Below are positions 10,649-40,984 of a DNA stretch of 45,505 nucleotides, piece after piece. A model generated the notes under the pieces. The model saw only the letters and a list, made by a program, of their open reading frames with translations, did no database searches and was not told where the DNA came from. Within the stretch, counting starts at the first letter, position 1. Each line of letters starts with the position of its first letter. Made by a program: the position numbers and the translations under genes. The stretch is from Paludibacteraceae bacterium (GTDB lineage Bacteria; Bacteroidota; Bacteroidia; Bacteroidales; Paludibacteraceae): NCBI GenBank assembly GCA_017551675.1, contig JAFZLC010000002.1:1-45505 (forward strand), given 5' to 3'.

Positions 10649-10665
10649 ATCTTAACTTTATAAAT

Positions 10666-10686
10666 GGTGAATTTCTAAAACTCACC
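10666..10686 (-). promoter_or_regulatory. Leader hairpin of argD, resembling hairpin 1 of the two-hairpin element
   Basis: On the minus strand GGTGAGT, a 7-nt loop and ATTCACC form a 7-bp stem with one G-U pair, ending 17 nt before the argD ATG. The stem matches hairpin 1 of the elements at 33483, 39430 and 40849. A smaller hairpin, GGG-AGTTGAAAT-CCC (10712-10698), lies just upstream and recalls the GGGTTGA side of their hairpin 2, but in the reverse order. Confidence 0.5.
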
Positions 10687-30742: not shown

Positions 30743-31594
30743 TTATTTATTATGGTGGGTACTATTAGGACTCACCTTATTACAAAGGGAGAATAAACGA
30801 ACAGCCTCATTAGCCTCTTTGACATCATGTACGCGAAGGATCTTAGCACCTTGTTGTAGTGCGATTGTATTCAACACCGTCGTACCATTCAATGCCTCAT
30901 TAGGAGTGATGTTCAACGATTGCCAAACCATCCTTTTGCGAGACAATCCCGCCAGAATTGGTAATCCGAACTGAAGCAGTTCAGACTGACGAGCCAGCAG
31001 TTCGAAGTTCTGTTCCATAGTCTTTCCGAAACCATAACCAGGGTCCAGAATGATATCTTTCACACCTCTACTTTGTAATACTGCTATTTTATCTGCAAAG
31101 AAACGAAAAATTTCTTTTATAAAATCATCATTTTCCATTTTAATCTCTAAAGAATGAGTAAGAACATACGGAACAGCACAAGAAGCGACCGCATCCAACA
31201 TAGAATCATCCTTATCGAAACCGAATACATCATTAATAATAGAGACGTTGTAAGACTCCACTGCCTCTTTAGCAATCGCACCACGGAAAGTATCAACAGA
31301 TATAACTAAGGAAGGATAGTTGGCACGAAGGAGTTCCAAAGCAGGGAACAGCCGTTTTTTCTCCTCCTCTTCAGAGACAAATGTAGCATTCGGACGAGTG
31401 GAACACGCACCGATGTCAATAATCGAAGCACCGTTCTGTACGAAAAAATCAACTTTTTCTAATAATTGAGAAGTCGATAAACAACGAGAAGATTCGAAAA
31501 AGGAATCAGTTGTAACATTTATTATACCCATCACAAGAGGAGAAGATGAGTCATAAAGCATTGATATACTATTATTTTTGAACAAATCAGACAT
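30743..31594 (-). CDS. folP: Dihydropteroate synthase
   Basis: 283 residues. The TIM-barrel landmarks are present: MGIINVTTDSF (start of the pterin site), ASIIDIGACSTRP, ISVDTFRG, IINDVFGF, ILDPGYGFGKT, and LAGLSRKRM. It joins p-aminobenzoate to dihydropterin pyrophosphate in folate synthesis. The final 12 residues (NKVSPNSTHHNK) are beyond the domain, and their coding DNA carries the GGTGAGT/ACCCACC hairpin ahead of cdaA. First gene of the folP-cdaA-lolD run. Confidence 0.94.
   Translation of the reverse strand: MSDLFKNNSISMLYDSSSPLVMGIINVTTDSFFESSRCLSTSQLLEKVDFFVQNGASIIDIGACSTRPNATFVSEEEEKKRLFPALELLRANYPSLVISVDTFRGAIAKEAVESYNVSIINDVFGFDKDDSMLDAVASCAVPYVLTHSLEIKMENDDFIKEIFRFFADKIAVLQSRGVKDIILDPGYGFGKTMEQNFELLARQSELLQFGLPILAGLSRKRMVWQSLNITPNEALNGTTVLNTIALQQGAKILRVHDVKEANEAVRLFSLCNKVSPNSTHHNK
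30754..30776 (-). promoter_or_regulatory. Hairpin before cdaA, related to the two-hairpin leader family
   Basis: Minus strand GGTGAGT, 9 nt, ACCCACC: six of seven positions pair. It sits in the last codons of folP, 33 nt upstream of the cdaA ATG. The arms match the outer ends of the 33483, 39430 and 40849 elements (left GGTGAGT, right ACCCACC) without the middle part. Confidence 0.35.
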
Positions 31595-33482: not shown

Positions 33483-33561
33483 GGTGAATCCTATAAAATT
33501 CACCATTTAAACAATAAATTAGTACATATTGTGGGCTAAGAACCTTTCTCAAAAACCCACC
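33483..33561 (+). promoter_or_regulatory. Two-hairpin leader element, copy upstream of murF
   Basis: Hairpin 1: GGTGAAT (33483-33489), 8-nt loop, ATTCACC (33498-33504). Linker 33505-33530 with TAAACAA and ATTAGTA. Hairpin 2: GTGGG (33531-33535) with CCCAC (33556-33560). The murF ATG follows 36 nt later. Same order, spacing and orientation as the copies at 39430-39502 and 40849-40924. Just upstream (33440-33482) are CACCTCACCT and GTGGGCGG segments that could compete for the same arms. Confidence 0.65.
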
Positions 33562-33597
33562 TTATTTGAAATAGGATGTTGACCCTACTATAAGATT

Positions 33598-34872
33598 ATG
33601 GATATCAATCAAATTTACAACCTTTTCCTCCTTCACCCTGTCATCACAACAGACAGCCGCAACTGCCCCGAAGGAGCCATTTTCTTTGCCCTTAAAGGTG
33701 CGAACTTTAATGGTAATCAATTCGCAAAAGAGACTATTCAAAAAGGATGCGCTTTCGCCTTCGTAGACGAAAAAGAGTATGCTGACGACAAACAAATATT
33801 CTATGTTCCCGATTGCCTCACCACTCTTCAACAACTGGCTGAGAAACATCGTATGACTTTGAACACCCCTATCATCGGTGTCACTGGAACAAACGGTAAA
33901 ACAACCACAAAAGAGTTGATTGCAAGCGTCCTAAAACAGAAATACAATATTCTATACACCCAAGGTAACCTCAACAACCATATCGGTGTACCAATGACAT
34001 TGCTTCAACTAAAAAAGGAACATGAGATCGCCATCATCGAAATGGGTGCCAACCACCCAGGTGAAATCAAAACACTTGTCAACATCGCTCGTCCTAACTA
34101 TGGTATCATCACCAATGTAGGAAAAGCTCACATAGAGGGTTTTGGTTCATTTGAAGGCGTTATCAATACAAAATGCGAGTTGTACGATTTCCTAAAAGAG
34201 AACAATGGAAAAGCCTTCGTCAACCAAGGGAACGAAATCCTTTTCAACAAGGCTCAACAAAAAGGTATCGCAACCATTCCTTACGGAAAGGGTGCAAACA
34301 TAGATGCTGAAATTCTATCATCCGACCCTTTCCTATCCATCCAATGGAATGGTCATCAAATAAAGAGTCAACTAATCGGTCGATACAACCTCGAAAACAT
34401 CGTGGCTGCAATCGCTATCGGCAAAAACTTCCAACTCTCTGACGAACAAATCGTCAACGCTATCGAGAACTACACCCCAACCAATAATCGTTCTCAATTC
34501 AAACAAACAGAGCGTAACGGGTTGATTATCGACGCCTACAACGCCAATCCAACCAGCATGAATGCCTCTTTGGACAATTTCATATTGATCAATGGGAAAG
34601 AGAAAGCAGTAATCTTAGGCGACATGAAGGAGCTTGGCACTGTAAGTGATTCAGAACACCAAAAGGTGGCAGACAAACTGAGTCAATCCACCATCTCCGA
34701 AATCTTGCTCATCGGTCCCAATTTTGCTAAAACGAACTGTCCAAGAGCTAAAAAGTTTAATGATGTAACTGCTCTGAACGACTATCTTAGCAAAAACCCA
34801 ATCAACGGAAAATTGGTTCTCGTAAAAGGATCAAACAGTATGAAACTTATTGAATGCGTCGGCTTACTATAA
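33598..34872 (+). CDS. murF: UDP-MurNAc-tripeptide-D-Ala-D-Ala ligase
   Basis: 424 residues, slightly shorter than E. coli MurF. N-terminal UDP-binding domain (DSRNCPEGAIFFALKGANFNGNQFA), central ATPase with P-loop GVTGTNGKTTTKEL, NNHIGVPMTLL and EMGANHPGEI, and the C-terminal domain containing IDAYNANPTSM and ILGDMKELG. It adds D-Ala-D-Ala to the peptidoglycan precursor in the cytoplasm. The leader contains the two-hairpin element. The next gene starts 2 nt after its stop. Confidence 0.95.
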   Translation: MDINQIYNLFLLHPVITTDSRNCPEGAIFFALKGANFNGNQFAKETIQKGCAFAFVDEKEYADDKQIFYVPDCLTTLQQLAEKHRMTLNTPIIGVTGTNGKTTTKELIASVLKQKYNILYTQGNLNNHIGVPMTLLQLKKEHEIAIIEMGANHPGEIKTLVNIARPNYGIITNVGKAHIEGFGSFEGVINTKCELYDFLKENNGKAFVNQGNEILFNKAQQKGIATIPYGKGANIDAEILSSDPFLSIQWNGHQIKSQLIGRYNLENIVAAIAIGKNFQLSDEQIVNAIENYTPTNNRSQFKQTERNGLIIDAYNANPTSMNASLDNFILINGKEKAVILGDMKELGTVSDSEHQKVADKLSQSTISEILLIGPNFAKTNCPRAKKFNDVTALNDYLSKNPINGKLVLVKGSNSMKLIECVGLL

Positions 34873-34873
34873 T

Positions 34874-35320
34874 ATGATGAATAACAATACGATTATACTC
34901 CTGATTATATTCTTTTCCATTCTTATCTGGTACCTCGTATACATCAACAAAAGGAAACAAGCGAAGGATTCAGCAACTGAGGAGAAAAAGATTCCTACGG
35001 AGATGAGCGAGGAACGCAAGAGAGCTATTGAGAATGGGGAATGCTGCGGTCAGCACGAGGTGTGTGAACGCGATTCTCTTATCAACACGCGCATACAAGC
35101 GGAATATTACGATGACGAGGAGCTTGACCAGTTTAAGGGTCGCAACCCTGAATCGTACACAGAAGATGAAATAAAGCTATTTAACGATGTCTTTTACACA
35201 CTAAAAGAAGGAGATGTAAGTGGATGGCTGAAAAGCATGCAGATAAGAGAAATTGAGATCCCTCAAAATCTCAAAGACGAGGCTTTGTTTATCATACAGG
35301 AAAGAAGATTTAACAAATGA
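34874..35320 (+). CDS. Conserved small single-pass membrane protein
   Basis: 148 residues from ATG 34874; an upstream in-frame ATG inside murF (34850) is less likely. One membrane helix (about 5-22, IILLIIFFSILIWYLVYI) followed by a basic stop-transfer (NKRKQAK), then a charged soluble part with ENGECCGQHEVCERDSL and an acidic region (EYYDDEELD). The CCGxHxVCE motif could hold a metal or disulfide. I recall similar Bacteroidales proteins only as hypotheticals. It is translationally coupled: 1 nt after murF and overlapping the next gene by 4 nt. Confidence 0.75.
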   Translation: MMNNNTIILLIIFFSILIWYLVYINKRKQAKDSATEEKKIPTEMSEERKRAIENGECCGQHEVCERDSLINTRIQAEYYDDEELDQFKGRNPESYTEDEIKLFNDVFYTLKEGDVSGWLKSMQIREIEIPQNLKDEALFIIQERRFNK

Positions 35321-37125
35321 AGGAACGATTAAAATCCATAGCATTTTATTTTGCCTTTTGGTTAATCATTTTTGTTCTACAAAAACCGATATTCCTTTTA
35401 TTTCAACTCTCACATGACAGTTTTGCCGACTGGATAGGCACCATCACGCATGGCTTCTGCATGGATCTATCTATGGCTGGCTACTGCACTCTACTGCCAC
35501 TCGTAGTGACGATGGTTTCTTGCTTCTTCTCCAACAACCAGTGGGCTCGAAAGACTATCGACATCTACACCTACATCCTGATTGGTTTCGTCTCAATCAT
35601 ATTTGTCGCCGACCTCTTTCTCTATCGCTATTGGGGATTTAGAATAGACAATACTCCCCTATTTTATCTGAAAACACCTAAAGATGCGTTGGCAAGCGGA
35701 TCATGGTATGAATACATCGCCGCACTCATCACCTTAGCCATCTTCATCTTTGCACTCGTCAAATTTTATCGATTCATGCGTACAAAAACGCAGGAATCCA
35801 CCACTCATTCATATATAACCCTCTTGCCTTTGACCCTGCTCTTTGGACTATTGTTCATACTCATACGAGGTGGCGTGGGTGTATCAACCATGAATGCCGG
35901 TTATGTCTATTTCAGCGAGTCAACCTTCCTCAATCATGCTGCTATCAATCCAACATGGAATTTCATCAACTCATGCACCAAATCAAACGATTTTAATAAA
36001 CAATATCGTTTCATGGAAGAGGGCGAAGCGGTTCGTCTCGTCGATGAACTAAATGTACCAAACACTACAACAGCAGACTCCCTAACAGGCAAGTTGCTAA
36101 ACACCAATCGTCCCAACATCCTATTGATCATTATGGAAGGAATCGGTTCCAACATGATAGAGACGCTTGGCGGCAAACCTGGTGTGGCTCCCAACCTATG
36201 TCGATATACCCAAGAGAGCATCTGTTTCTCCAATTTCTTTGCCAGTAGTTTCAGAACAGACAGAGGATTGGTAGCTATTCTGAGTGGTTATCCTGCTCAG
36301 CCTACCAACTCATTAATGAAATTCCCAAATAAAACACAGAACGTTCCTATCATAACGCAAGACCTGCGCGCCAATGGTTATCATACAGCCTTCTATTATG
36401 GTGGTGATGATAATTTTACAAACCTTCACTCCTATTTGGTCACCGCCGGTTACCAGACAATCGTCAACCAACATGATTTCGCAGGAAAGGATATGTCCAG
36501 CAAATGGGGCGCCTACGACCATGTTGTGCTCAATCGTGTCAAAAAGGATTTACACGAGGCAGAGCAACCCTTCTTCAAGACCGTACTGACACTCAACAGT
36601 CACGAACCATTCGATGTACCCTCTCATGTGTTGGATGAACCTTATCCCAACTCAGTCCACTACACAGACAGTTGCATAGACGACCTCATTGAAGATTACA
36701 AAAAACAGGAGATTTGGAAGAATTCTCTTATCATCATTCTGCCCGACCATGCATTCCGATACCCAGCAACACTCGACAATGCAACACCATGGAGGTATAG
36801 AATACCAATGATTTGGTTGGGGGGTGCTATCGACTCTGTTAGGACCATCACCAAGACGTGCGGACAAGTAGACATTGCCGCCACCCTATTGAACCAACTC
36901 GACCTGCCGTCAGAGCGCTTTATCTTCAGTCACGATATCATGAGTTCAACCCACCCTGAGTATGCATTTTACTCCTTTATCGATGGCTTCGGACTCATCA
37001 CACCAAAGGACACATCAATATATGACTGTGGAGCAAATCGGACTGTACGAACCACTTACGAACAAACAATCGAACAGGGGAAAGCTTATCTTCAAAGACT
37101 TTACGACGATTTAAGTATAAGATAA
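35317..37125 (+). CDS. LTA synthase-family membrane phosphotransferase/sulfatase
   Basis: 602 residues. Five membrane helices in residues 1-200 (for example FAFWLIIFVLQKPIFLLF), then a periplasmic alkaline-phosphatase-superfamily domain: NILLIIMEGIGS with the metal-binding Glu, catalytic Thr in FRTDRGLVAIL, and ILPDHAFRYP with the Asp-His metal ligands. Gram-negative relatives transfer phosphoglycerol or phosphoethanolamine to surface glycans or lipids; Bacteroidota have no lipoteichoic acid, so the acceptor here is unknown. It overlaps the preceding membrane gene by 4 nt (ATGA), and forms a murF-linked envelope operon. Confidence 0.85.
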   Translation: MKERLKSIAFYFAFWLIIFVLQKPIFLLFQLSHDSFADWIGTITHGFCMDLSMAGYCTLLPLVVTMVSCFFSNNQWARKTIDIYTYILIGFVSIIFVADLFLYRYWGFRIDNTPLFYLKTPKDALASGSWYEYIAALITLAIFIFALVKFYRFMRTKTQESTTHSYITLLPLTLLFGLLFILIRGGVGVSTMNAGYVYFSESTFLNHAAINPTWNFINSCTKSNDFNKQYRFMEEGEAVRLVDELNVPNTTTADSLTGKLLNTNRPNILLIIMEGIGSNMIETLGGKPGVAPNLCRYTQESICFSNFFASSFRTDRGLVAILSGYPAQPTNSLMKFPNKTQNVPIITQDLRANGYHTAFYYGGDDNFTNLHSYLVTAGYQTIVNQHDFAGKDMSSKWGAYDHVVLNRVKKDLHEAEQPFFKTVLTLNSHEPFDVPSHVLDEPYPNSVHYTDSCIDDLIEDYKKQEIWKNSLIIILPDHAFRYPATLDNATPWRYRIPMIWLGGAIDSVRTITKTCGQVDIAATLLNQLDLPSERFIFSHDIMSSTHPEYAFYSFIDGFGLITPKDTSIYDCGANRTVRTTYEQTIEQGKAYLQRLYDDLSIR

Positions 37126-37239
37126 ACTCTTTATTCTGTGACGGTTTGATTTGGGTTAAAATCAAAGGACGTTATTACCACCTCAATGAGAAAGGCGAAG
37201 GACTTCCAGAATGATATTTTCGTCACATAACGATACAAA

Positions 37240-37265
37240 AAAAGGTGCGCTTCCACGCACCTTTT
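37240..37265. terminator. Bidirectional terminator
   Basis: AAAAGGTGCG (37240-37249) and CGCACCTTTT (37256-37265) around TTCCAC; usable by both the plus-strand transferase gene and the minus-strand symporter gene. Between the transferase stop (37125) and this point I see no convincing gene. Confidence 0.85.
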
Positions 37266-37283
37266 CTGTTATATAAAACGATC

Positions 37284-38846
37284 TTATTTCTTCTTTGTCA
37301 ACAAGCTCACAACAACGATTGTGATGCAAGAGAGTGGGAATGCGAACATGATAGGGTCGATAAACTTAATCATACCATTCGTAACCAATACGTCAGTTCC
37401 AAAAATAGCTTTGCAGATGCCTAACGCAGTAGCCTCTTTTGCATGAAGGAATAGGAGTGCCAAGATTGTCGCAACGACTCCAACCCACATACTTGCATAA
37501 GCACCTTTGGTAGTCACCTTCTTCCAATACAATGCGCAGAAATAGGATGGCAAGAATGCCGATGCACATATACCCATGAATAATGAAGTAGAGATTGCAA
37601 TGATTGGAGAATCATTACCTTCACCCAACACGAAACAAATGATGAAGCTGATGAGGATTGACACCAACACGGCAAGACGGATAACAACAGTCATCTTCTT
37701 CTTAGCCGACTCGCTCACACAAGAGCCATAGATATCAGAACCTGCAGCAGCAGCCATTGTATGGAACTGTGCACTTAGCGTAGACATACTGGCAGAAAGG
37801 ATACATAGCATAAAGATGGTTACAAACCATGTTGGCATGACACGTCCAATAAAGTATGGAATAATCTTATCAGAGGCATCCACCATGTTGATGGAGATAT
37901 TACCATCGTTTTGCCAGAAATAGAGGTTAGAAAGTGCACCTACGTGATAAACAACACCCACAGTGATCAGTAGGAAGACGCAACCAATAGCAACACCTTG
38001 GTTCAGTTTCTTCGTGCTATTAACCGTCATGAAACGAACCACCAATTGCGGTTGTGCCAAACAACCGATACCAACACCCATGATAAGTGAAGTAACCAAT
38101 GTATACCACTGTTGAGATGCGAACGCTGGCATGGAGGTCCATCCTCTGTGACCAACAGCCGCAAGTTTCTCAGGCACTTGATCTGAGATAGCTCCTAGGG
38201 CTGCATTCGCCTCAGAAAATCCCATTCCTAAAGCCTTGTATACACCAATCACCAAGAAGGCCATACATAAGAACATGATGACAGCCTGCAAAGCATCTGT
38301 ATACATCACACCTTTCATACCACCAGCGATTACATATGATGCAACAATGATGGTAAAAATCAACAAAGCTAAGTTAAAATCGATACCAAACACCTCCTGC
38401 ATACAGAATACACCACCACGAAGTACCGCAGCAGCATAAAGCGGCATACAAATGAAGATGACAGCTGCAACAAATATGCGAATCTTCTTTGAATCGTAGA
38501 ATGCTCCTAAGAACTGAGCAAATGTGGAGACTTTCAACTTCGCACCAATACGTCGGGTCGGACGTCCAAAGATGATGAAGGCGATAACAACACCAACAAA
38601 CATATTAAGAAACATCAGCCACTGAATTCCCATACCGAAAGTAGCAGCCACACCACCGAATCCAACTATAGCAGAAGCCGATATGAACGTCGCACCATAA
38701 GAGAGTGCCATAACAATAGGGTTCATCTCACCTCCACCGATAAGAAAATCTTTTGAATCTTTTGTTTTCTTATATCCTAGATATCCTAAAAATGCAACGG
38801 CTAAGAAATAAACCATTACAATTAGGTACATTGAAAAATTGTCCAT
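37284..38846 (-). CDS. Sodium:solute symporter (SSS family)
   Basis: 520 residues with about 13 membrane helices. LGYKKTKDSKDFLIGGGEMNP, SYGATFISASAIVGFGG, and GMKGVMYTDALQAVIMF are typical of SSS proteins close to acetate/proline/pantothenate carriers; the SASAIVGFGG unwound helix and SASMSTLSAQ region correspond to substrate- and sodium-site segments. It starts 5 nt after the 41-residue peptide gene and is the last gene of the paaK operon. Given PaaK, a carboxylic acid is a plausible substrate, but that is inference. Confidence 0.88.
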   Translation of the reverse strand: MDNFSMYLIVMVYFLAVAFLGYLGYKKTKDSKDFLIGGGEMNPIVMALSYGATFISASAIVGFGGVAATFGMGIQWLMFLNMFVGVVIAFIIFGRPTRRIGAKLKVSTFAQFLGAFYDSKKIRIFVAAVIFICMPLYAAAVLRGGVFCMQEVFGIDFNLALLIFTIIVASYVIAGGMKGVMYTDALQAVIMFLCMAFLVIGVYKALGMGFSEANAALGAISDQVPEKLAAVGHRGWTSMPAFASQQWYTLVTSLIMGVGIGCLAQPQLVVRFMTVNSTKKLNQGVAIGCVFLLITVGVVYHVGALSNLYFWQNDGNISINMVDASDKIIPYFIGRVMPTWFVTIFMLCILSASMSTLSAQFHTMAAAAGSDIYGSCVSESAKKKMTVVIRLAVLVSILISFIICFVLGEGNDSPIIAISTSLFMGICASAFLPSYFCALYWKKVTTKGAYASMWVGVVATILALLFLHAKEATALGICKAIFGTDVLVTNGMIKFIDPIMFAFPLSCITIVVVSLLTKKK

Positions 38847-38851
38847 AACGC

Positions 38852-38977
38852 TTACTCTTTTTTATCGTTTTCGTCTTCTTTGTTCCAATATTTTACTCCA
38901 AAAACAACGGAGCCGATCACGCATAGTATAGACAACAAATACACGATCCAAATACCAGGGTCTGAAATACCAAACAT
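38852..38977 (-). CDS. 41-residue symporter accessory membrane peptide
   Basis: ATG at 38977, stop at 38852. The peptide begins MFGISDPGIWIVYLLSILC, has one membrane helix (about 9-30) and ends in a charged tail (WNKEDENDKKE). Small proteins with a DPxIW...Y opening, encoded right next to SSS symporters, are annotated in Bacteroidota as symporter small accessory proteins; this one fits in size, sequence and position. It sits 11 nt after the ACT gene and 5 nt before the symporter gene. Confidence 0.85.
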   Translation of the reverse strand: MFGISDPGIWIVYLLSILCVIGSVVFGVKYWNKEDENDKKE

Positions 38978-38988
38978 AATTTTTATTT

Positions 38989-39414
38989 TTATAAGTTATT
39001 CAATTCTGTTTCTGATAGGTTATTCAAGTTGTATCTACGAATAACATCATTTGCAGCATCAATGTTGTTAGTTCTTAAAATCAAGATTGTCTTACCTGAA
39101 AAAGAAAAACTATACATATATTCGATGCTGATACCAGCCTTGGTGAATAGTTCTATCGTCTCTGCAAACTTCTCCATTGAGGACTCCACAGAAACAGCTA
39201 AAACTGAGTTTAGATTGGCACTTACTCCATGTTCTTTCAACAGTTGAATCACCTTATGCTGATTGGATGTAATCAAGCGGAGAATGCCATAATCCGATGT
39301 GTCAGCAACCGTGGCTGTTAGAACTCGTATATTCTCCTTGCTGAGAATAGAGAGAATCTCGTTCAAACGTCCGAACTTATTCTCCAAGAATATCGAAATC
39401 TGATTAATAGTCAT
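38989..39414 (-). CDS. Tandem ACT-domain regulatory protein
   Basis: 141 residues made of two ACT domains (about 1-68 and 72-138): QISIFLENKFGRLNEILSIL begins the first, and SIEYMYSFSFSGKTILILRT lies in the second. ACT domains bind amino acids and related small molecules. Paired genes for a PaaK-type ligase and a double-ACT protein are common in Bacteroidota and archaea, where the ACT protein is thought to sense aromatic amino acids or acids. It is second in the operon, and a copy of the two-hairpin element fills the gap between it and paaK. Confidence 0.88.
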   Translation of the reverse strand: MTINQISIFLENKFGRLNEILSILSKENIRVLTATVADTSDYGILRLITSNQHKVIQLLKEHGVSANLNSVLAVSVESSMEKFAETIELFTKAGISIEYMYSFSFSGKTILILRTNNIDAANDVIRRYNLNNLSETELNNL

Positions 39415-39429
39415 ACTGATATTTTTTAG

Positions 39430-39502
39430 ATGGGTTTCATGAATTCATTTCAACCCATAATTCATACTAATTTTGTTTATTCAGTGAATTGATAAGACTC
39501 AC
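39430..39502 (-). promoter_or_regulatory. Two-hairpin leader element, copy between paaK and the ACT gene
   Basis: Minus strand. Hairpin 1: GTGAGT (39502-39497) with ATTCAC (39489-39484). Linker 39483-39459 with TAAACAA and ATTAGTA. Hairpin 2: ATGGGTT (39458-39452) with AACCCAT (39436-39430). It starts 2 nt after the paaK stop and ends 15 nt before the ACT gene ATG. The hairpin 2 stem is changed on both sides (A-T where the other copies have G-C), which keeps pairing. Confidence 0.65.
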
Positions 39503-39504
39503 AA

Positions 39505-40812
39505 TTAATGATTCTTTCTTAAGTCTTTAACTCTCACTGCCTTTCCTTCTGATACTGGAAGGGTGCCTTTTTCAACCAACTTAACCTTTGGTGTCAAAAG
39601 AATCTCATCTTTCAACTGACGAGTAATCTCTTTGGTGAGAGCTTGCAACTTCGTGTAATCATCTGTATGAAGATCACCCAACTCTACCTCCACCAACATC
39701 TCATCGTTATTGCCAATCGTATCAATCGTGATTAGGTAATTCATACCCAACTCTTTGAAGTTCATCAAAATGCGCTCGATTTGAATTGGGAAGATGTTAA
39801 CTCCCTTCACAATCATCATATCATCTGAACGTCCCTTGATACGAGAGATTCTTCTGTGGGTTCTACCGCAAGGACACTGTCCTGGAAGGATACTGGTTAA
39901 ATCGCGTGTACGATAACGAATCAATGGCATGGCTTCACGACAAAGAGTGGTCAACACCATCTCTCCTACTTCACCCTCTTTCACTGGTTCAAGAGTCTCT
40001 GGATTGATAATCTCCACCAACACCAAATCCTCCCATATATGAAGACCATTTTGCTCTTGGCATTCGAATGCAACACCAGGTCCGTTCATCTCTGACATTC
40101 CAAAGCAGTTGTATGCCTTTAATCCAAGCAACTCCTCGATACGTTTACGTTGCTCTTCTGAGTGTGGTTCTGCACCAACACACATAATTTTCAATTTGGT
40201 ATCTTTACGAGGATCCAAGCCCTCTTCCTGAATGACTTCAGCCAAACGAGTAGCATAACTTGGAATAGTGTGAAGCACTGTCGTACCGAAGTCACGTATA
40301 AACTTAATCTGACGCTTGCTGTTACCCGCAGCAGCTGGTACCGTCAAGCAGCCCAAACGCTCTGCTCCGTATTGATAACCTAATCCTCCTGTGAACATAC
40401 CATAACCAGAGGTGTTTTGGAACACATCCGTATTACGAACACCCACCATGTACATACAACGAGCCACTTGATTAGCCCATGTATCAAGGTCTTTCTGTGA
40501 ATGAAGCACAACAGTAGGATTTCCTGTGGTTCCGCTAGAAGAGTGAAGGCGAACCACCTTTTCCATAGGGACGGCAGCAAATCCGAATGGATAATTGCTA
40601 CGAAGATCCTCTTTCGTTGTAAAAGGGAATTTCTTTATGTCATCTAACGAATTTATAGAATCGGGCGATAGTCCTTTTTCTGCAAATAACTTTTTGTAAA
40701 ATGGCGAATTCATCGCTTGTTTTACTGTGTTTTTCAAACGCTCCAACTGGAGTTTCTCGAGGTCAGGACGACTCATCGTCTCAATCTCTTCTTCCCAATA
40801 CTTTTCTGTCAT
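39505..40812 (-). CDS. paaK: Phenylacetate-CoA ligase family enzyme
   Basis: 435 residues from ATG 40812 (MTEKYWEEEIE). An in-frame ATG at 40860 lies within the loop of leader hairpin 2, and its 16 extra residues look non-coding, so the shorter form is preferred. ANL-superfamily signatures: LHSSSGTTGNPTVV (ATP loop), FGMSEMNGPGVAFEC, and YRTRDLTSILPGQCPCGRTHRRI. It would activate phenylacetate, indoleacetate or a related acid to its CoA thioester. Its neighbours are a double-ACT protein and a symporter. No indolepyruvate oxidoreductase gene is in the window. Confidence 0.9.
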   Translation of the reverse strand: MTEKYWEEEIETMSRPDLEKLQLERLKNTVKQAMNSPFYKKLFAEKGLSPDSINSLDDIKKFPFTTKEDLRSNYPFGFAAVPMEKVVRLHSSSGTTGNPTVVLHSQKDLDTWANQVARCMYMVGVRNTDVFQNTSGYGMFTGGLGYQYGAERLGCLTVPAAAGNSKRQIKFIRDFGTTVLHTIPSYATRLAEVIQEEGLDPRKDTKLKIMCVGAEPHSEEQRKRIEELLGLKAYNCFGMSEMNGPGVAFECQEQNGLHIWEDLVLVEIINPETLEPVKEGEVGEMVLTTLCREAMPLIRYRTRDLTSILPGQCPCGRTHRRISRIKGRSDDMMIVKGVNIFPIQIERILMNFKELGMNYLITIDTIGNNDEMLVEVELGDLHTDDYTKLQALTKEITRQLKDEILLTPKVKLVEKGTLPVSEGKAVRVKDLRKNH

Positions 40813-40848
40813 TTTTCTATTCTTTATGTCTCGCGTTAATAGATATAA

Positions 40849-40924
40849 GGTGGGTCCCATAATAACTTATCAACCCACTATTCATACTAATATTTGTTTA
40901 CACGGTGAATTAACAGAACTCACC
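40849..40924 (-). promoter_or_regulatory. Two-hairpin leader element, copy upstream of paaK
   Basis: Minus strand. Hairpin 1: GGTGAGT (40924-40918), 7-nt loop, ATTCACC (40910-40904), with one G-U pair. Linker 40903-40879 with TAAACAA and ATTAGTATGAAT. Hairpin 2: GTGGGT (40878-40873) with ACCCAC (40855-40850). It lies wholly in the transcribed leader: promoter at 40953-40984, ATG at 40812. Confidence 0.7.
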
Positions 40925-40952: not shown

Positions 40953-40984
40953 CAAATTTACTTAAAAACGTTTATTGTAACAAA
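40953..40984 (-). promoter_or_regulatory. paaK operon promoter
   Basis: Minus strand TTTG (40984-40981), 20 bp, TAAATTTG (40960-40953). Transcription would begin near 40946, giving a leader of about 134 nt that contains both hairpins. The segment 40985-41103 between this promoter and the patatin stop shows no convincing terminator. Confidence 0.7.

Follow-up and report, generated by a model that had tools for sequence, protein, structure and literature searches.

Does a pair of hairpins that recurs before several genes mark a regulatory RNA or a mobile piece of DNA? This question is raised by a 45,505-nucleotide stretch from a Paludibacteraceae bacterium (assembly GCA_017551675.1, contig JAFZLC010000002.1; "the window" denotes this whole stretch), in which three genes follow an element made up of a first hairpin, a linker and a second hairpin, and two further genes follow a similar single hairpin. 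By Pfam, the former encode a Mur ligase, an ACT domain pair and an AMP-binding enzyme, and the latter a class III aminotransferase and CdaA; the Mur ligase, AMP-binding enzyme and aminotransferase genes are presumably murF, paaK and argD. The original prediction, made from the letters of the window, had proposed either a family of cis-regulatory RNAs, possibly connected with amino-acid metabolism, or a small palindromic repeat that is dispersed and favours leaders. We find that the recurrent pair of hairpins most likely represents a shortened copy of a small mobile DNA element of gut bacteria, often situated just before genes and in their direction, rather than a riboswitch. The repeat was thus the right choice and can be specified as a miniature inverted-repeat transposable element (MITE) with inverted ends and 4-bp target duplications; we are confident, short of certainty, that such a MITE with sense-biased placement in leaders and a presumed modest, gene-independent effect on expression is the best description of the family.

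The three copies lie in the predicted order and in sense orientation, within a few bases of the predicted sites, and the hairpins announced before argD and cdaA were both found as well (Table 1). They are all members of one dispersed family, of which about 100 copies can be recognised in the 3.3 Mb genome. The hairpin 1 pattern GGTGARTN{5,12}ATTCACC occurs at 36 distinct sites in this genome and the same pattern read backwards at none, while a covariance model of the left half, a step that had been proposed and that we carried out with 35 copies, gave at least 122 matches at E<=1 (a lower bound, with 150 candidates scored). Chance is excluded by the 36 sites against none, together with the 122 model matches. 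The 108 best matches were analysed; the model set left out pattern matches without similarity in the linker, and 4 of the 36 pattern sites fall outside the model list.

Longer forms of the element were recovered by a DNA search and an exact 21-mer scan of GTDB genomes, which yielded 102 stretches; the 80 that were viewed come from genomes named Paludibacteraceae bacterium, (uncultured) Bacteroidales bacterium or Candidatus Minthenecus merdequi. Among 57 non-redundant two-ended copies from other genomes, 33 measure 195-199 bp, 16 measure 53-170 bp, five 189-193 bp and three 249-270 bp. The element is bounded by 19-bp inverted ends, GGTGAGTTCTATAAATTCA...TGAATTTATAGAACCCACC, the left end being matched by GGTGGGTTCTATAAATTCA, the reverse complement of the right end, and three full-length copies are predicted to fold end to end into a single hairpin (-57 to -66 kcal/mol). 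Hairpins 1 and 2 are not independent of each other, because GGTGAGTTCTATAAA of the left end is complementary to TTTATAGAACCCACC of the right end except at one base. An exact 4-bp target duplication flanks 41 of the 57 copies (shuffled mean 7.6, maximum 16 in 2000), most often TTAA (16 copies) and mostly of the form T..A; a 5-bp flanking duplication was found in none of the 57. In the window's own genome, 12 of the 49 copies with a recognisable right end show the 4-bp duplication (shuffled mean 3.1, maximum 9), a lower share that is expected if these copies are older. Four relatives hold at least 42, 41, 65 and 40 matches, many of them full length (40 candidates scored per genome), and full-length copies are abundant in species like G012 and G005. 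The unit is too short for a transposase, and its inverted ends, 4-bp duplications and 195-199 bp length make up the anatomy of a MITE, so that the element is very probably a MITE-like non-autonomous DNA transposon of Paludibacteraceae. Judged from sequence, the window's copies of 75-79 bp are internally deleted forms of the 195-199 bp element: in the murF copy, hairpin 1 is the left end, followed by the linker and by hairpin 2, which is closed by the right end. The forms present in the window's species are two-hairpin copies of about 65-80 bp, the left end only (hairpin 1 and linker), or a 23-bp remnant.

Two further observations concern the longer copies and their surroundings. L043 and L066, long copies of the window's genome, contain a second palindrome such as AGAGACGCAAAGCATTGCG(T/A)CTCT, as if a repeat were nested in them. 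In SIG111 and RGIG9480 the left flank ctattatcaaaaaaggagaataaaaataggtttaa, or nearly so, is common to many copies (L082, L084, L087, L092, L103, L115, L130, L146 and others) and the right flank taaaagaatc to several, which suggests that the element is carried there within a larger repeat.

A repeat had been expected to lie in random orientation, and this expectation failed. Genes were called with a simple dicodon-based finder of open reading frames (ORFs) of our own, and promoters were predicted by motif. Among the 108 copies, 53 lie in sense and 14 in antisense between co-directional genes (p = 9e-7), 34 between divergent genes and one between convergent genes, four inside ORFs and two at contig edges. 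Because the model set had omitted pattern matches without linker similarity, the count was repeated on pattern matches alone, with 20 sense against 2 antisense (p = 6e-5), nine divergent and one inside an ORF, the four unlisted sites of the 36 not being counted. Simpler scans of sampled loci from the sister species G003 and G014 gave 12 sense against 5 antisense and 16 against 5; in other genomes, filtered two-ended copies were sense in 20 cases and antisense in 5, with a promoter directed into the element in 13 sense copies and 1 antisense copy. Copies of at least 160 bp in other genomes are biased as well (15 against 4; promoter into the long copy, 9 against 0). Since a mobile repeat can have so strongly non-random an orientation, the dichotomy of repeat versus leader RNA is too simple.

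The -7 box of Bacteroidetes is described as TAnnTTTG (PMC7366714). For 76 sense copies, the 60 nt upstream contain this box 36 times in forward and 4 times in reverse direction (shuffle mean 3.1, maximum 9). Of the 37 boxes listed, 29 have their end 5-30 nt ahead of hairpin 1, and of 67 near-start sense copies, 34 have a box directed into them. Where a gene on the antisense side starts within 400 nt (n = 41), a box stands between element and gene in 33, and one fires through the element toward the gene in five, two of which also have a box in between. The promoter that had been predicted before the paaK copy is present as such a box (Table 1). Seventeen of the 53 sense copies, like the ACT copy, start no more than 5 nt beyond the upstream stop codon or overlap it. 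The sites of the element are A+T-rich and lie between promoter and start codon or at stop codons inside operons, by predicted genes and promoters. Of the 30 copies with a recognisable right end, 15 have its last base 13-18 nt upstream of the start codon; of the 34 without one, 12 have the end of hairpin 1 at 15-25 nt upstream of it. Among the surviving copies, the sense orientation of the predicted transcript is strongly favoured.

Relatives were compared in a genus set of 16 genomes, in 14 of which the start of paaK was located, with 190 nt of upstream sequence in 13 and only 52 nt in the 14th. The paaK leader contains the element in 2 of these 13 readable species, the window's own (G000) and G014. 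G003, whose PaaK is 100% identical, has an empty site with the promoter box and both flanks aligned, and no element was seen in this leader in the remaining ten readable species, G013 included. In the stretch after paaK the element is found in 3 of 15 readable species (G000, G003 and G014) and is absent from 12, including G013 and G002, so that empty sites exist for the ACT copy as well as for the paaK copy; G008 could be read for a few bases only, and G007 continues with what seems to be unrelated sequence. At the murF site, the right half alone remains in G003 and G014; a left-half remnant before argD is common to these two and could not be made out by eye in the set's other 13 species. Ortholog comparisons with G003 and G014 (65, at 46 loci) had hairpin 1 aligned in 56 cases and missing in 9; empty sites are under-sampled here because the loci were fetched by model match, and the counts of G003 and G014 are not independent because they are sister species. 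By these alignments, the element has been gained and lost at orthologous leaders between related species. Over the 82 nt compared, the ACT copy shows no difference between G000, G003 and G014, and the DNA after it differs at 35 or 39 of 370 sites across the three; an identical leader amid diverging DNA might reflect constraint at that one locus.

A scenario which unites these results would begin with a transposase acting in trans that moved the element. Where the element inserts or survives in sense, it would become part of the mRNA leader, with hairpin 1 near the predicted 5' end, and there it may modestly alter mRNA stability or translation regardless of the gene; selection may purge copies that are wrongly oriented or prevent initiation (for both of these steps our confidence is moderate), and tolerance or benefit at the RNA level would set the strand of the element. 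Bacteroidetes are described as lacking Shine-Dalgarno sequences, and in Flavobacterium johnsoniae initiation is reported to be tuned by structure and by adenines at -3, -6, -12 and -13 (PMC6847099), which makes an A-rich linker behind a hairpin plausible as a leader. Nothing in the analysis points to a specific ligand.

Several results weigh against this scenario. The gene calls behind the strand counts are simple, self-made predictions, and the less filtered exact 21-mers from other genomes show a weaker bias (28 sense against 12 antisense; the rest being 16 divergent, 6 convergent, 6 inside ORFs and 31 undetermined, with near-duplicates partly removed). The predicted accessibility of the start codon is alike for the native and the inverted element (native better in 25 of 40, p = 0.21), on which ground we rejected start-codon occlusion as the cause of the strand bias, and the start is predicted to be on average 3.0 kcal/mol less accessible with the element than with the element deleted. 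Hairpin 1 has diverged further than its surroundings, by 13.1% against 6.2% in the 60 nt upstream (21 sense/edge loci, one comparison each, leaving out 4 of the 56 aligned orthologs that have more than 8 mismatches and may be misaligned); the far flanks of these 21 loci differ by 8.6% and 9.0%, and hairpin 1 in 14 other loci by 13.4%. The signs of selection for pairing, detailed below, are weak. Finally, no transposase carrying the MITE ends was found among loci with paired ends or in the surroundings of PF01609 and PF13751 matches. Paired ends stand 0.5-4 kb apart in ten scan loci, and the ORFs of at least 100 aa in nine of the ten look by eye like host genes (such as hisG and hisD), without a family search; the 24 loci around matches to PF01609 and PF13751, the two transposase families searched, had no convincing shared ends. 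One candidate parent, a tandem PF01609 element on contig 28 of G029 (L436, L438), was discarded, as its left end GGTAGGCTCTAAAAATTGA is four mismatches off the MITE end and has no matching right end.

The strongest rival holds that the element is a pure passenger, whose bias stems only from the insertion mechanism (e.g., transcription-coupled targeting) or from the purging of harmful antisense copies, and whose sense copies have no function; we give it a substantial chance, somewhat below even. It agrees with the bias already seen in long copies elsewhere, with a hairpin 1 that is no better preserved than its flank, and with the similar accessibility of native and inverted leaders. Three comparisons speak weakly against it. 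Fully paired stems of hairpin 1 are in excess only in sense copies (46 of 76, p = 0.001; others 12 of 32, p = 0.78; p from shuffled 3' arms). In the 41 of 65 comparisons without gaps in the hairpin, where 40 base pairs changed over 574 stem nt as against 51 of 285 loop nt, the changed pairs of sense/edge copies remained paired in 18 cases and lost or gained pairing in 7 (G003 and G014 not being independent), versus 3 and 10 in other copies, with 2 unpaired in both. The 30 nt past the model end differ by 9.1% in sense/edge loci against 21.0% in others, many of these bases lying outside the element; for the linker the values are 10.2% and 15.8%. The original prediction had stressed that stem changes keep pairing; its examples are literally true and yet selected, since over the 108 copies both-sided changes keep pairing six times and break it six times. 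Among one-sided changes, 73 preserve pairing and 71 disrupt it, and in the ACT copy hairpin 1 is closed by a U-U mismatch. Selection on hairpin 1 would be weak at most.

A more far-reaching proposal lets the RNA decide the fate of the MITE altogether: copies would become established only at sites with transcription in one direction, the left hairpin and the A-rich linker would be kept as a portable 5' leader (a cap hairpin plus a translation-initiation region) on many housekeeping mRNAs, and the right half would be deleted so that the start codon falls at the position of an internal ATG of the element. We regard this as rather unlikely.

Far less probable is a structured cis-regulatory RNA, that is, a riboswitch or protein-binding leader of amino-acid or envelope metabolism which controls the downstream genes. 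Such an RNA would account for the sense placement in predicted leaders behind promoters, for the identical ACT leader in three species and for a few both-sided stem changes such as GATGAGT/ATTCATC, but the even split of such changes between keeping and breaking pairs argues against it. So does the 35-copy alignment, in which no strongly conserved core was seen outside hairpin 1. At gathering thresholds, Rfam gave no match in the window or in seven loci of its genome, in agreement with the initial impression that this is not a known riboswitch; at E<=0.5, four loci produced just two unrelated sub-threshold matches. A riboswitch or other known RNA family was rejected on this result and on the gain and loss of the element at orthologous leaders.

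The downstream genes point in the same direction. Outside the window, 52 were listed and 20 of these, picked by us, were scanned; above NCBIfam cut-offs, they include topoisomerase/gyrase subunit A, methionyl aminopeptidase (map), purine-nucleoside phosphorylase, GlsB, metG, fabD, the YihA/YsxC GTPase (engB), a dipeptidase, argH, dTMP kinase (tmk), a TerC/Alx-family protein, cysteine synthase, DNA polymerase I (polA), MltG and a BamJ-family protein. No pathway is common to the downstream genes examined, among them murF, paaK, the ACT gene and argD as well as those for topoisomerase subunit A and cysteine synthase, metG, fabD, map, engB, tmk and polA. Such diversity fits a mobile element and not a metabolite sensor. 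With leaders that gain and lose the element, a hairpin 1 that outdiverges its flank and genes without a shared function, the proposal of a cis-regulatory RNA family, perhaps linked to amino acids, is not supported.

Two last alternatives have next to no credibility. A palindrome of the repetitive extragenic palindromic (REP) or bacterial interspersed mosaic element (BIME) type, moved by a RAYT-like single-strand transposase, would likewise form hairpins and be mostly intergenic and high in copy number, but single-strand hairpin transposition of this kind is not known to make target duplications, and the present element has 4-bp duplications and matched left and right ends on a unit of mostly 195-199 bp. 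Transcription attenuators or terminators would suit two hairpins in a leader, but among the copies listed the ACCCACC of the 3' hairpin is followed, by eye, by TTAA, TAAA or the like and by no T run.

Table 1. Copies and remnants of the element in the window, with the predicted promoter box
Feature	Position	Strand	Remarks
Two-hairpin element, murF leader	33483..33561	+	79 bp, internally deleted MITE-derived form
Two-hairpin element, ACT-domain gene leader	39429..39503	-	75 bp, MITE-derived, between paaK stop codon and ACT gene
Two-hairpin element, paaK leader	40849..40924	-	76 bp, MITE-derived
TAAATTTG, match to Bacteroidetes -7 box TAnnTTTG	40953..40960	-	upstream of paaK copy
Left-half remnant, hairpin 1 (10666-10686) and linker	10649..10686	-	ends at argD start codon
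Minimal 23-bp remnant before cdaA	30754..30776	-	left end GGTGAGTCCTA fused to right end ATAGTACCCACC; by eye

The last base of the element lies 36 nt (murF), 14 nt (ACT gene) and 36 nt (paaK) from the start codon. The cdaA remnant is flanked by ATAA on either side (by eye), and a pterin-binding (folP-like) ORF at 30743-31594 on the minus strand runs through it to a stop codon at 30745-30743; the final residues of this ORF appear to be encoded by the transposon remnant. The linker of many copies in the window's genome, e.g., at 40924-40872 on the minus strand, contains AGTATGAAT, with an internal ATG about 18-21 nt past hairpin 1. A similar distance separates hairpin 1 from the start codon of the gene itself in copies that consist of the left half only. 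The ATG of AGTATGAAT could possibly give rise to an upstream ORF or to start-codon capture.

The MITE reading implies that dozens of predicted mRNAs receive their hairpin leader from a single family, in a phylum without Shine-Dalgarno sequences, with a strand bias strong enough to show in a single genome. It raises a testable question, whether transcription or selection at the RNA level fixes the orientation of a DNA transposon, and it calls for caution: leader hairpins of Bacteroidales that are found repeated by eye or by a motif finder can be transposon remnants, not regulatory RNA families.

Bacterial MITEs are usually described as intergenic elements. Within the Bacteroidales, those of Porphyromonas gingivalis are reported to be strictly intergenic (PMC10969869), and BrickBuilt and other MITEs of this species are described as dispersed, non-coding, with terminal inverted repeats and no transposase remnant (PMC4596501). 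BrickBuilt differs from the present element in its 23-nt tandem repeats and in the ends listed for it, such as CCGAAAGGTCTC, which are unlike GGTGAGTTCTATAAATTCA; its duplications vary in length and sequence in three of four copies (PMC4596501), whereas the present element has a steady 4 bp and is leader-biased. ERIC and YPAL of enterobacteria are, like the present element, MITEs that enter transcripts with genes; how ERIC affects mRNA stability is said to depend crucially on its orientation, and empty and filled sites have been compared for YPAL (PMC2229807). Both belong to another host group, and ERIC is reported to act on the upstream transcript via an RNase E site (PMC2229807). The Correia/NEMIS elements of Neisseria are likewise short inverted-repeat elements that enter transcripts; they undergo RNase III processing, which in one case was shown at the ends. 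The excerpts of the two accounts (PMC10969869, PMC2229807) mention no strand lock to a downstream gene. Cis-regulatory leaders in Rfam resemble the element in their predicted 5' leader position and hairpin anatomy, and differ in that the element is mobile, matches no Rfam family and precedes genes without a shared function among those examined. The open-access literature that we searched on leader repeats of Bacteroidales and Paludibacteraceae gave no description of this family. MITEs that enter transcripts and MITEs of Bacteroidales are already known; this family and its strand lock to the leader are new.

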